The notes beneath the pieces were generated by a model. That model saw nothing but the letters and a program-made list of their open reading frames with translations. It searched no databases and had not been told where the DNA came from. Source: Zhaonella formicivorans (GTDB lineage: Bacteria > Bacillota > DUOV01 > Zhaonellaceae). Taken from it: a stretch of DNA of 64,000 nucleotides. The position numbers and the translations under genes were made by a program. Below, piece by piece: positions 19,497-23,531 of this stretch. The stretch's first letter is position 1; each line of letters begins with the position of its first letter. Location of the stretch: the NCBI RefSeq assembly GCF_004353525.1, contig NZ_CP085524.1:124001-188000 (forward strand), read 5' to 3'.

Positions 19497-19525
19497 TTGC
19501 AAGCGTAATATAATATAAGTATAAT
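19497..19525 (+). promoter_or_regulatory. Sigma-A promoter of the methyltransferase / Cys-peptide / radical SAM operon
   Basis: TTGCAA (19497-19502), 17-bp spacer, TATAAT (19520-19525). Confidence 0.75.
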
Positions 19526-19536
19526 TATACATAAAT

Positions 19537-19555
19537 AATACCCGTAAGGGGTATT
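19537..19555 (+). promoter_or_regulatory. CsoR/CstR-like operator
   Basis: Perfect inverted repeat AATACCC-GTAAG-GGGTATT, starting about 12 bases after the -10 element and ending 14 bases before the start codon. The layout TACCC...GGGTA resembles operators of CsoR-family repressors (copper sensor CsoR, persulfide sensor CstR). A repressor here would block early elongation. No csoR-like gene is in the window. Confidence 0.6.
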
Positions 19556-19569
19556 TTGGAGTGTTTAAC

Positions 19570-20214
19570 ATGGTGTCAGAACAGGCAATCAGAGAAGCAA
19601 TTATTGCCAGGTATACCGCGGAAGCGGGGCTTGAGGGTTGCTTAAGCTGCGGCACAGTTTTAAATGATGCTCTGGTCAAGTCTGGGGAGACAGTGCTGGA
19701 CCTGGGGTGCGGTAAAGGGTATGATGTGATCAATGCGGCCCGGTTAACCGGTGAGGAAGGAAAAGTATACGGCTTGGATTTAACCCCAGCCATGCTGGAG
19801 GCAGCCAGAGCAAATGCCCGGAAAGAGTCGGTAGCGAATGTGGAATTTATCCAGGCGGCTCTGGAGGAAATTCCTTTGCCGGACGCAAGCATTGACTTAG
19901 TCATCAGCAACTGTACCATTAACCACAGTTTAAATAAGCTTCAAGCCTATCGGGAAATTTACCGGGTTTTAAAGCCAGGGGGGAGATTTGTGATTTCCGA
20001 TGTAATGGCGGAAGAGCCCCTTCCTCCGGAAGTAGTGCAAGATCCCCAAGCCTGGGCGGAATGTTACGGCGGCGCTTTACCGGCAGCAGCATACTATGAT
20101 CTAATTAAAATGGCAGGTTTTCTACATATTTATACCTTAAAAAGCAGATCCTATCTAAAAAACGGGCATAAAATGACAAGCCGTACGTTGCATGCATTTA
20201 AGCCGGGAGAGTAG
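19570..20214 (+). CDS. ArsM-like SAM-dependent methyltransferase
   Basis: 214 residues, class I methyltransferase with VLDLGCGKGYDV (motif I) around residue 42. Three Cys positions agree with the As(III)-binding cysteines of ArsM: one in the N-terminal LSCGT (Cys27), one in ISNCTIN (Cys115) and one in AECYGGAL (Cys165). It is shorter than typical ArsM (about 260-380 residues) because the C-terminal part is missing. It may methylate arsenite or another thiol-bound metalloid or a peptide thiol. ATG 19570 follows TTGGAG; GTG 19561 lies inside that site. First gene of the operon leading to the Cys-rich peptide and radical SAM enzyme. Confidence 0.8.
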   Translation: MVSEQAIREAIIARYTAEAGLEGCLSCGTVLNDALVKSGETVLDLGCGKGYDVINAARLTGEEGKVYGLDLTPAMLEAARANARKESVANVEFIQAALEEIPLPDASIDLVISNCTINHSLNKLQAYREIYRVLKPGGRFVISDVMAEEPLPPEVVQDPQAWAECYGGALPAAAYYDLIKMAGFLHIYTLKSRSYLKNGHKMTSRTLHAFKPGE

Positions 20215-20259: not shown

Positions 20260-20385
20260 ATGAAAGCTCTAACCCAGGTCAAACTAGGTAAAAAAGAGCA
20301 AAGCTGCTGCTGCGGCAAAAATGAGTTTACAGTAGCCCAGTGTTGTTCCAAATCATCCAAAATTATTGCCGGGTGCCACGACTGA
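20260..20385 (+). CDS. 41-residue Cys-rich peptide, candidate modified-peptide precursor
   Basis: Small gene with an excellent ribosome site (AAAGGAGGTG, 6 bases before ATG 20260). The peptide has a Lys-rich N-terminal half without Cys (residues 1-15) and a C-terminal half with six Cys: 16-18 (SCCCG), 28-29 (QCCS) and 39 (GCHD end). Leader-like half plus Cys-rich core, followed by a SPASM radical SAM enzyme and thiol-redox enzymes, is the layout of a ribosomally made, post-translationally modified peptide. An alternative is a metal- or arsenic-binding metallothionein-like peptide. No known family recognised. Stops are TGA then TAA. Confidence 0.7.
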   Translation: MKALTQVKLGKKEQSCCCGKNEFTVAQCCSKSSKIIAGCHD

Positions 20386-20467: not shown

Positions 20468-20549
20468 AAGGGGGATTGTCAAGGGGTAAGCTCCAAGGGG
20501 GCAGCTTCTGTCTCCTTGCTTCCTCCTTCCGGCAGGGAGGTTAGTGAAA

Positions 20550-21905
20550 GTGAGTTATGTTAGTAAATATAATCTGGTTCTGGAGAATAGGGTAAGAGCA
20601 GGGGAATACTTGCTCTACAATCCGCTTTCCGGCGCTGTAGATTTGGCTGATGCTTCGGAAATAAGGGCCTTGGAGGACATTGTAAGTGGCAGTGAACCGG
20701 AAAGGGAATTTATAGAATACCTCAGGTCCAGAGGTTATGTATTCGATTCCAAAGAAGAAGAAGATGAGCTTATAGCTTTCAAATATAAAGAGTTTCAGGA
20801 GGCCATGGCTCAGTCGCCGGTACAGCTGTTTCTGATACCGACTTATGGCTGTAATTTGGCTTGCACTTACTGCTTCCAGGAAGGTATTAAAAAGAAAAAA
20901 GCGCTGATTGATTCCGCAACTATTGAAGCTTTTTTCACCAGTGTGGATAAAAAGTTTGGTTCGGCTCCGGTTAAGCCATTCGTTACATTGTTTGGTGGCG
21001 AGCCATTAATTGATACTCCCAACCACCGGGAGGCAATAAGGCAAATCATTGCCGGCTGCAATGAACGGGGATATGAACTGGCTGTGGTCACTAACGGGTA
21101 TGATCTTAAAGAATATCTGGATCTGCTTGGTCAGGCGGCAATCAAGGAAATTCAAGTTACTTTGGACGGTGACCGCGAAACCCATGATGCCAGGAGGTTT
21201 ACTAAGGGCCGAGAAGGAACTTTTGACAAAATCTTGGAAAGTCTGTCAGGAGCTGTAGAGCGGGGTTTTCCGATTAATTTGCGCACTGTGGTAGACAAAT
21301 CCAACCTGATGGGACTGGTCAAATTGGCTGAACTATTGGATGCTAAGGGTTGGCTTGATTTACCCCAGGAGAGGTTTAAGACCCAAATCGGGAGAAACTA
21401 TGAACTGATTGATGCTAACTGTTCCGAGGGACTGCTTTCCCAGCTGGAGCTTTGGCAAAATGTTGTTAAGTTGAGCGAAAATTACCCGCTTTTGCGCAAA
21501 TTTCACCAGCCGCAGTTTAAAGGCATGAAATATCTGGTATTAACAGGCGAAACTTCTCTGCCCAGCTTTGACACCTGTCCGGCATGCAAGGGAGAGTGGG
21601 TTTACGACTTGTACGGAGATATATACGGTTGTACCGCCAGCTGTGGCCGGGAAGAATATAAGTTGGGTACCTTTTATCCTGCAGAGCAGCTGGACATGAA
21701 GCAGGTTGAGCAGTGGACCGGCCGGAATGTGCTGCAGATGGAAGAGTGCCGTGATTGCCCGACCAGCCTGATCTGCGGTGGCGGCTGCGGTGTGGTGGCC
21801 AAAGAGAAGAATGGCATAATCTTGAGCCCTGACTGTCGGCCTATCAAGGAATTGCTGGAACTGGGCATGGAGTATTATCGGGAAGAACTTCTCAAGTTAG
21901 GATAG
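20550..21905 (+). CDS. Radical SAM / SPASM domain enzyme, probable peptide maturase
   Basis: About 451 residues. N-terminal region (1-85, YNLVLENRVRAGEYLLYNPL) resembles the leader-binding or pre-SAM region of SPASM maturases; the radical SAM CxxxCxxC is at Cys101, 105 and 108 (CNLACTYC); GGEPL, TNGYDL and the barrel follow. The C-terminal SPASM region holds nine Cys (about 343, 346, 361, 365, 400, 403, 409, 413, 429), enough for two auxiliary 4Fe-4S clusters. Such enzymes modify peptides (thioether or carbon bonds) or activate enzymes. GTG 20550 is favoured because GGGAGG at 20535-20540 is 9 bases upstream; GTG 20544 is the alternative. It sits between the Cys-rich peptide and thioredoxin genes. 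Confidence 0.88.
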   Translation: MSYVSKYNLVLENRVRAGEYLLYNPLSGAVDLADASEIRALEDIVSGSEPEREFIEYLRSRGYVFDSKEEEDELIAFKYKEFQEAMAQSPVQLFLIPTYGCNLACTYCFQEGIKKKKALIDSATIEAFFTSVDKKFGSAPVKPFVTLFGGEPLIDTPNHREAIRQIIAGCNERGYELAVVTNGYDLKEYLDLLGQAAIKEIQVTLDGDRETHDARRFTKGREGTFDKILESLSGAVERGFPINLRTVVDKSNLMGLVKLAELLDAKGWLDLPQERFKTQIGRNYELIDANCSEGLLSQLELWQNVVKLSENYPLLRKFHQPQFKGMKYLVLTGETSLPSFDTCPACKGEWVYDLYGDIYGCTASCGREEYKLGTFYPAEQLDMKQVEQWTGRNVLQMEECRDCPTSLICGGGCGVVAKEKNGIILSPDCRPIKELLELGMEYYREELLKLG

Positions 21906-21915
21906 AGGTGATAAA

Positions 21916-23190
21916 ATGAGTGATTTAATCAGTTATATTAGTGCTGCAGATTTTCAACAAGAGGTTTTAGAATCAAGCTTGCCGGTGGCAGTTGATTTTT
22001 ACTCGGAGGATTGCCCTCCTTGCGCCCAGCTGGCGCCCATTTATGAAAAACTGGCCCAAAAATACGGCAGCAAGATGAAATTTGTAAAGATCTTGCGCCA
22101 GGCTAACCGGGAACTGGCATTGCAATTAGGTGTAAAGAGCAGCCCGACAGTTTTGTTTTTCCAGAACGGTAAGGAGATCGGCAGCCGGTTTACCGGCTAT
22201 ATCAAGAAAGCGGAATTACGGCAAGCTGTGGAAAAGATCCTGGGGATCGATGAAACAAACAGGGATATGACAGTGGAAGAGTGTGATGTCTTGATCCTGG
22301 GTGGAGGTCCGGCCGGATTAACTGCCGGTATTTATACAGGCAGGGCTAAGCTTAAGACCATCATTGTTGACGAAGGTCTGGCAGGAGGTCAGGCGGCAAC
22401 TACCTACCATATTGCCAATTACCCCGGCACCGGTGAGGTTGTGCGCGGCAATGAGCTGATGGCCAAAATGGCTGAACAGGCCAGGAGTTTTGGAGTACGG
22501 ATTGAAGAGTTGAAAGAAGTCTCGGAAGTTGATTTAAATGGCCCGGTGAAAAGGATTCAGACTGAAGACGTAGTATATTATGCTAAGAGCGTGATTATCG
22601 CTACCGGGGCAGAACCAAGGAAGCTGCCGGCGGAAGGGGAAGACCTATTCAGGGGTCGGGGTGTCCACTACTGCGCCACCTGCGACGGGATCATGTACGA
22701 AGGGAAACACGTGGTTGTGGTAGGCGGTGGCAACAGCGCTGTGGAAGAAGCGGTCTACCTAACCCGCTTTGCCGACAAAATTACCATTATTCATGAATTT
22801 GATCACTTCCAGGCTTCCAAAACGGCTCAGGAAGAAGCTTTTAAGAACCCGAAAATCGATATAATCTGGGGGGCCCATGTTAAAAAAGTTCTGGGAGAAG
22901 GCCACTTGCAAGGCGTTGTCTATCAGGACCTGGCCAGCGGAGAGATGCATGAGCTGGCAGCAGACGGTGTTTTTGTTTACATCGGTACTCAGCCCCGCAC
23001 CGGCTTGTTTAAAGAACAACTAGATTTGAACCAATATGGGTATATTAAAACTGATGAAGAAATGCAGACAGCTATTCCAGGTGTGTTTGCGGCCGGCGAT
23101 GTCCGGGTTAAAGGAGTACGGCAGGTAATAACCGCCTGCGGAGATGGCTGCATAGCCGCCCTCAGCGCGGAAAAATATTTAGCACAATGA
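21916..23190 (+). CDS. Thioredoxin-thioredoxin reductase fusion
   Basis: 424 residues: an N-terminal thioredoxin fold (1-110) with an unusual CPPC motif (Cys33, Cys36, replacing WCGPC), a short linker, and a complete thioredoxin reductase-like flavoprotein (about 122-424) with GGGPAGLTAG for FAD, the redox pair CATC (Cys253, Cys256), and VVVGGGNSAVEEA for NAD(P)H. It would move electrons from NAD(P)H through its own disulfide to its own or a separate thioredoxin. ATG 21916 follows GAGGTGAT, 10 bases after the radical SAM stop. A free thioredoxin follows. Fusions usually put thioredoxin at the C-terminus (mycobacterial type); here it is N-terminal. Confidence 0.92.
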   Translation: MSDLISYISAADFQQEVLESSLPVAVDFYSEDCPPCAQLAPIYEKLAQKYGSKMKFVKILRQANRELALQLGVKSSPTVLFFQNGKEIGSRFTGYIKKAELRQAVEKILGIDETNRDMTVEECDVLILGGGPAGLTAGIYTGRAKLKTIIVDEGLAGGQAATTYHIANYPGTGEVVRGNELMAKMAEQARSFGVRIEELKEVSEVDLNGPVKRIQTEDVVYYAKSVIIATGAEPRKLPAEGEDLFRGRGVHYCATCDGIMYEGKHVVVVGGGNSAVEEAVYLTRFADKITIIHEFDHFQASKTAQEEAFKNPKIDIIWGAHVKKVLGEGHLQGVVYQDLASGEMHELAADGVFVYIGTQPRTGLFKEQLDLNQYGYIKTDEEMQTAIPGVFAAGDVRVKGVRQVITACGDGCIAALSAEKYLAQ

Positions 23191-23210: not shown

Positions 23211-23531
23211 ATGAGCATTGTAAAAGTAACTGACAGCAATTTTAAAACAGAGGTACTGGAATCCGAAAAGCCTGTATTAGTTGACTTTTGGGCTGAGTGG
23301 TGCGGTCCTTGCCGGATGGTGGCCCCTGTAGTGGAGGCAGTGGCCCAGGAGTACGGAGATAGGCTGAAAGTCGCCAAATTAAATGTGGATGAAAACCCGC
23401 TTACCGCCAGCCAGTATGGAATTATGAGCATTCCCTCCTTGTTCATCTTCAAGGACGGCGAAATTGCCAACCGCATGGTAGGGTATATGCCAAAAGAGAA
23501 GCTGAAGCAGTCCATCGATCAAACGATATAA
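23211..23531 (+). CDS. trxA: Thioredoxin
   Basis: 106 residues, complete thioredoxin with [13 protein letters not shown] (Cys31, Cys34) and the cis-Pro loop MSIPSLF. ATG follows GTGAGGTAATTCAAG. Last gene of the methyltransferase-peptide-radical SAM operon, ended by a strong convergent terminator. It probably receives electrons from the upstream fusion reductase and may reduce the Cys-rich peptide or the radical SAM enzyme's substrate (inference). Confidence 0.95.

Follow-up and report, generated by a model that had tools for sequence, protein, structure and literature searches.

Genes and promoter of the Cys-peptide operon

The window, by which we mean the whole 64,000-nucleotide stretch of Zhaonella formicivorans DNA analysed here, carries on its plus strand an operon built around a short Cys-rich peptide. 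The operon opens with an ArsM-like SAM methyltransferase gene (19570–20214) and continues with a 41-aa Cys-rich precursor peptide (MKALTQVKLGKKEQSCCCGKNEFTVAQCCSKSSKIIAGCHD; 20260–20385), a radical SAM/SPASM peptide maturase (20544–21905; 48–57% identity to its orthologues), a thioredoxin-thioredoxin reductase fusion (Trx-TrxR; 21916–23190; it passes the TIGR01292 cut-off and has a thioredoxin domain at the N-terminus) and a thioredoxin (Trx; 23211–23531; TIGR01068 above cut-off), with gene starts deduced from the sequence. The methyltransferase shares with ArsM arsenite methyltransferases the fold and the three arsenic-site cysteines, which are kept in all 22 orthologues, but it differs from them in scoring below the cut-off of PRK11873 (214 bits against 263) and in its place within a peptide operon behind a CsoR-type site. 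Among NCBIfam models the maturase comes nearest to CefB and TIGR04463, both radical SAM maturases of Cys-rich peptides, at 153–156 bits against cut-offs of 525–600 (CefB, the best match, 156 against 600), so that no NCBIfam model exceeds its cut-off; the precursor matched no NCBIfam or Pfam model.

With the radical SAM protein as query, orthologues were found in 18 further Bacillota genomes (E below 1e-90, two samples), and also in a Desulfosporosinus MAG, another Bacillota MAG and a Myxococcales MAG. Peptide and methyltransferase are present at all 22 loci (22/22), and the Trx-TrxR gene is adjacent in most. The peptide family ends in the core AQCCSKxSxxVxGCHD, found at 20260–20385 of the window and at 21 orthologous loci, the Myxococcales one (locus L041) included; within it, AQCC-K ... 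GCH is invariant across 15 aligned representatives. Thus a short Cys-rich precursor is kept beside a radical SAM/SPASM enzyme at 22 loci, the arrangement by which radical SAM RiPPs are recognised, and the enzyme likely modifies the peptide. Thioredoxin is known to re-reduce ArsM; here the Trx-TrxR pair could keep the thiols of the peptide reduced or regenerate the methyltransferase by reduction.

Ahead of the first gene, a consensus scan places a -35 element (TTGCAA, 19497–19502, plus strand) at a 17-nt spacing from a -10 element (TATAAT, 19520–19525, plus strand) that has counterparts in the orthologous promoters. Eleven nucleotides downstream of the -10 lies a perfect 7-bp inverted repeat of 19 bases, AATACCC-GTAAG-GGGTATT (19537–19555, no strand assigned; arms 19537–19543 and 19549–19555, 5-nt centre GTAAG), followed by the Shine-Dalgarno GGAG (19558–19561, plus strand) and the ATG at 19570. 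The preliminary description had set this palindrome between the -10 element and the ribosome site, which these positions bear out.

A CsoR-type site and a single CsoR in the Z. formicivorans genome

Type-2 operators of the CsoR family combine a TAC/GTA dyad spanning nine bases with G-tracts (PMC3902906). The palindrome reads TAC-CCGTAAGGG-GTA (TAC 19539–19541, GTA 19551–19553), an exact fit, and the earlier characterisation of CsoR operators as TACCC...GGGTA palindromes agrees with the published TAC-N9-GTA rule (PMC3902906). We scored the site with a position weight matrix (PWM) trained only on copper and csoR sites from outside the operon, gathered by hand from such promoters and set against a background of the pooled loci with the sites included; 19537–19555 scores 21.4, against a training mean of 22.3. 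On sequence, genome and orthologue scans and the PWM, we annotate it as a predicted CsoR-family type-2 operator.

The palindrome by itself proves little, because roughly four arbitrary palindromes with 7-bp arms and a 5-nt gap are expected by arithmetic per 64 kb and because the window shows no enrichment of loose matches (at three mismatches, 4 found vs. 3.0 expected). Loose 14-base matches are likewise not enriched genome-wide, and the 3.3 Mb contain the full 14-base pattern only once. The core TACCC-N5-GGGTA has seven copies in the genome vs. nine for a reversed-pattern control; there is no excess, and the case therefore rests on where the sites lie rather than on how many there are. The scan for further copies, which had been proposed as a check, thus found the full pattern to be unique and three of the seven cores in front of copper-ATPase genes: two precede one copper-translocating P-type ATPase gene and one precedes a second copA, after which copZ follows. 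The proximal site of the first copA, the site of the second and 19537–19555 share their placement after the -10.

The other core sites have contexts of their own. One precedes a small His/Cys/Met-rich protein beside copA (MAQFFNDYGSWLLIGGLFFLMMRMHGGGGCCGGGHHQQRKEETGKPNAHEYTGHKH; L063:1420–1700, minus strand, about 1481930–1482200 of contig G000:C1), which has its own CsoR-type promoter and no Pfam or NCBIfam match. Another lies inside the 17-nt spacer of a strong promoter (TTGACT-N17-TAAAAT) serving an 18-codon ORF, MFTKHWMLRETAHCKEGC, that is followed by a strong hairpin (L036:2990–3200; G000:C1:2811490–2811700), a candidate copper-induced micropeptide or small RNA. A core at 2733460, before a small Cys-containing ORF in an unrelated context, was taken as accidental.

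Whether the genome has a regulator of this family was a further question raised beforehand, and it does: the single 3.31-Mb contig codes, at G000:C1:674928, for exactly one PF02583 protein (profile search, E 6.6e-29), whose closest solved relative is a CsoR (4m1p, E 4e-24). A second-shell Tyr predicts Cu(I) selectivity in the CsoR family, and it occurs with His and an acidic B residue and never with an acidic C residue (PMC4235346). The Z. formicivorans protein carries this Cu(I) fingerprint complete (A=Tyr, X=Cys, Y=His, Z=Cys, B=Glu), with a non-acidic Met at position C. A CstR would have a dithiol site without the Cu(I) His, Tyr and Glu, all three of which are present here. The gene after csoR encodes a thioredoxin. 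Autoregulation would call for a site before csoR; this genome's own csoR has none, while several relatives do have one.

The predicted operator at orthologous operons

Here G000 denotes this genome, other G numbers the genomes of relatives and L numbers loci. We scanned 252 kb of pooled loci for ATACCC-N5-GGGTAT with at most two mismatches, taking as the upstream zone the 130 nt before a system gene. Of 23 sites, 12 fell within upstream zones that make up 3.3% of the DNA, and these were distributed over 8 genomes (vs. 0.37 expected from shuffled zones, and 1 with the reversed motif). The operator is strict in five family-level Bacillota groups, namely G000, G006/G052, G123, G230/G278 and G398/G399, where paired genomes are close relatives and not independent. 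One of the two matches in G230 lies within coding sequence, and a better-placed site there, in the Trx-TrxR promoter, is spaced N10. Orthologous promoters show TTGACA-N17/18-TATAWT-like elements at a distance from the operator like that in the window, and every system promoter with a site has it 10–15 nt after the -10. Conservation upstream of orthologous operons, on which the preliminary description had staked its reading, is thus found in five lineages with like promoter geometry.

Degenerate operators appear in three more lineages, G046 (ATACCCC..GGGGGTGT), the G119 family (CCCCTATATAGGGG) and G170, of which the PWM backs only G046. No operator was found at the system in G111, G284, G080 and the G049 group, though CsoR is present in them, and this tells against the CsoR reading; it is likewise missing from G246 and G400, in which no CsoR-family gene was found either (the G246 assembly being only 85% complete), and this agrees with that reading.

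The inducing signal, competing readings and known systems

Two readings dispense with a repressor. The inverted repeat could work at the level of RNA, through a hairpin of the 5′ leader that controls the ribosome site or attenuates transcription; the transcript would form a 7-bp hairpin, and the minus strand scores as terminator-like. However, 22 of 200 shuffled leaders fold at least as well as the real one (z -1.4), there is no converging minus-strand gene at that place, a site of the same type elsewhere falls between the -35 and -10 of another promoter and would thus be outside the RNA, and what is conserved is TAC..GTA and how far it stands from the -10, whereas neither stem length nor loop is kept. 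We disfavour both the hairpin and the terminator, and hold RNA control to be very improbable. Chance could also supply such a repeat, since palindromes with arms this long are frequent and the core is not over-represented against the reversed pattern genome-wide, yet its position, its PWM score and its presence in five lineages whose promoters share one geometry leave a functionless palindrome scarcely credible.

Given the computed site and its position, the single csoR with its Cu fingerprint, the sharing of the site type with copA promoters and conservation among orthologues, we consider it quite likely that the palindrome serves as operator for a CsoR-type repressor, which Cu(I) would release so that the Cys-peptide operon is induced together with the copA genes. 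The steps of binding, repression and Cu(I) induction are borrowed from known CsoR biology: effector-free CsoR tetramers would sit on TAC-N9-GTA at about +6 to +24, just past the -10, and would stop RNA polymerase from starting at or leaving the promoter, until Cu(I), bound in the Tyr/Cys-His-Cys/Glu site, would release CsoR and allow transcription of the operon and the two copA genes. Induction would then yield the Cys-rich peptide, the radical-SAM enzyme and the ArsM-like methyltransferase, with thioredoxin and thioredoxin reductase for reducing power, and its purpose would likely be to deal, in the cytoplasm, with Cu(I) or some other soft agent that seeks thiols. Copper, then, probably switches on this modified-peptide system; the role of the peptide is speculative, and we infer that its product may respond to or handle copper and hypothesise that it binds the metal.

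CstR of Staphylococcus aureus senses persulfide, and its operators resemble the present case in the DUF156 family of their regulator, in operator type and in a sulfur/thiol gene context. The preliminary description had named CsoR and CstR side by side. In this genome we favour CsoR and Cu(I) as regulator and inducer, because the Cu ligands are present in the regulator and sites of this type precede both copA genes; the regulator also differs from CstR in that csoR has no rhodanese/sqr context. Cu(I) is less certain as inducer of the system at large, where the choice between CsoR and CstR stands, because G006 and G052 retain the sites with a Cys-Asn-Cys regulator. Their sole family protein has Asp/Cys/Asn/Cys/His at A-X-Y-Z-B, without Tyr, His or Glu; with the Cu ligands missing it resembles CstR, copper cannot be the signal there by the CsoR mechanism, and the protein is most simply read as a dithiol, CstR-like sensor. 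These two genomes (loci L031 and L083) offer an observation in its own right: a ligand-losing CsoR at tcdA-csoR-trx whose apparent regulon is the Cys-peptide operon, Trx-TrxR and rex, and leaves out copA.

Thiol or persulfide sensing is hence still a serious rival for the system as a whole: the operator would still be of the CsoR family, but the ancestral signal would be thiol redox or persulfide stress, as for CstR, with copper induction here secondary or a by-product of sharing the regulator. Besides the altered G006/G052 protein, that reading can point to copA without a site in those genomes, where the methyltransferase, Trx-TrxR and rex promoters have one; to csoR adjoining trx in most genomes that carry the system, with a common tcdA-csoR-trx location in many of them; and to the Trx and TrxR genes of the operon itself. 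Set against these are the full Cu(I) fingerprint of the only CsoR in Z. formicivorans, whose sites precede both copA genes, and the sites that precede copA also in G111, G284, G080, G046 and G170, so that we judge an ancestral thiol signal rather unlikely. Copper stress and sulfur stress both attack thiols, and the system may therefore be a thiol/soft-metal defence with an exchangeable sensor.

Regulation by a copper-released CsoR would resemble the copZA/csoR systems of S. lividans, B. subtilis and L. monocytogenes, with their type-2 operators, in the TAC-N9-GTA dyad, the G-tracts, the N5 centre, the C-H-C/Y/E Cu(I) repressor and the same sites at this genome's copA (PMC3902906). Unlike in those systems, the target is a radical-SAM peptide operon instead of copper export, and the whole operator lies past the -10. 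Bufferins, oxazolins and methanobactins are copper RiPPs modified by MNIO enzymes (PMC12452194); they too join a Cys-rich ribosomal peptide and a dedicated modifying enzyme to copper, a connection that is here a candidate one. The maturase of the window is of the radical SAM/SPASM type and not an MNIO, no Sec signal peptide was seen, the partners are an ArsM-like methyltransferase and Trx/TrxR, and copper binding by the peptide is hypothetical.

Our literature search for CsoR with a RiPP or radical SAM system found none described. We could match this conserved peptide-modification operon to no named family or paper, and the CsoR site would give it a signal that is concrete and can be tested. 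Whereas the known copper RiPPs depend on MNIO enzymes, a radical-SAM peptide switched by copper and accompanied by an arsenic-type methyltransferase would, if true, be another kind of solution. We propose, tentatively and with less than even confidence, a new RiPP class: a CsoR-controlled, cytoplasmic, radical-SAM-modified Cys peptide with the C-terminal core given above, induced by copper or thiol stress, that would be acted upon by an ArsM-type methyltransferase and a Trx-TrxR of its own and would serve anaerobic Bacillota as a buffer for Cu(I) or a different soft metal(loid). The loss of Cu ligands in one lineage that has kept the sites provides a natural test of signal change in a CsoR regulon.

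A DUF5714 protein (PF18978; related to the NCBIfam model MbdU, 'metal-binding double selenoprotein') turns up repeatedly as a neighbour of the Cys-peptide operon or of a CsoR-like gene, at L023, L028 and L029 (next to the radical SAM gene), at the csoR locus of G230 (L093) and at L031.
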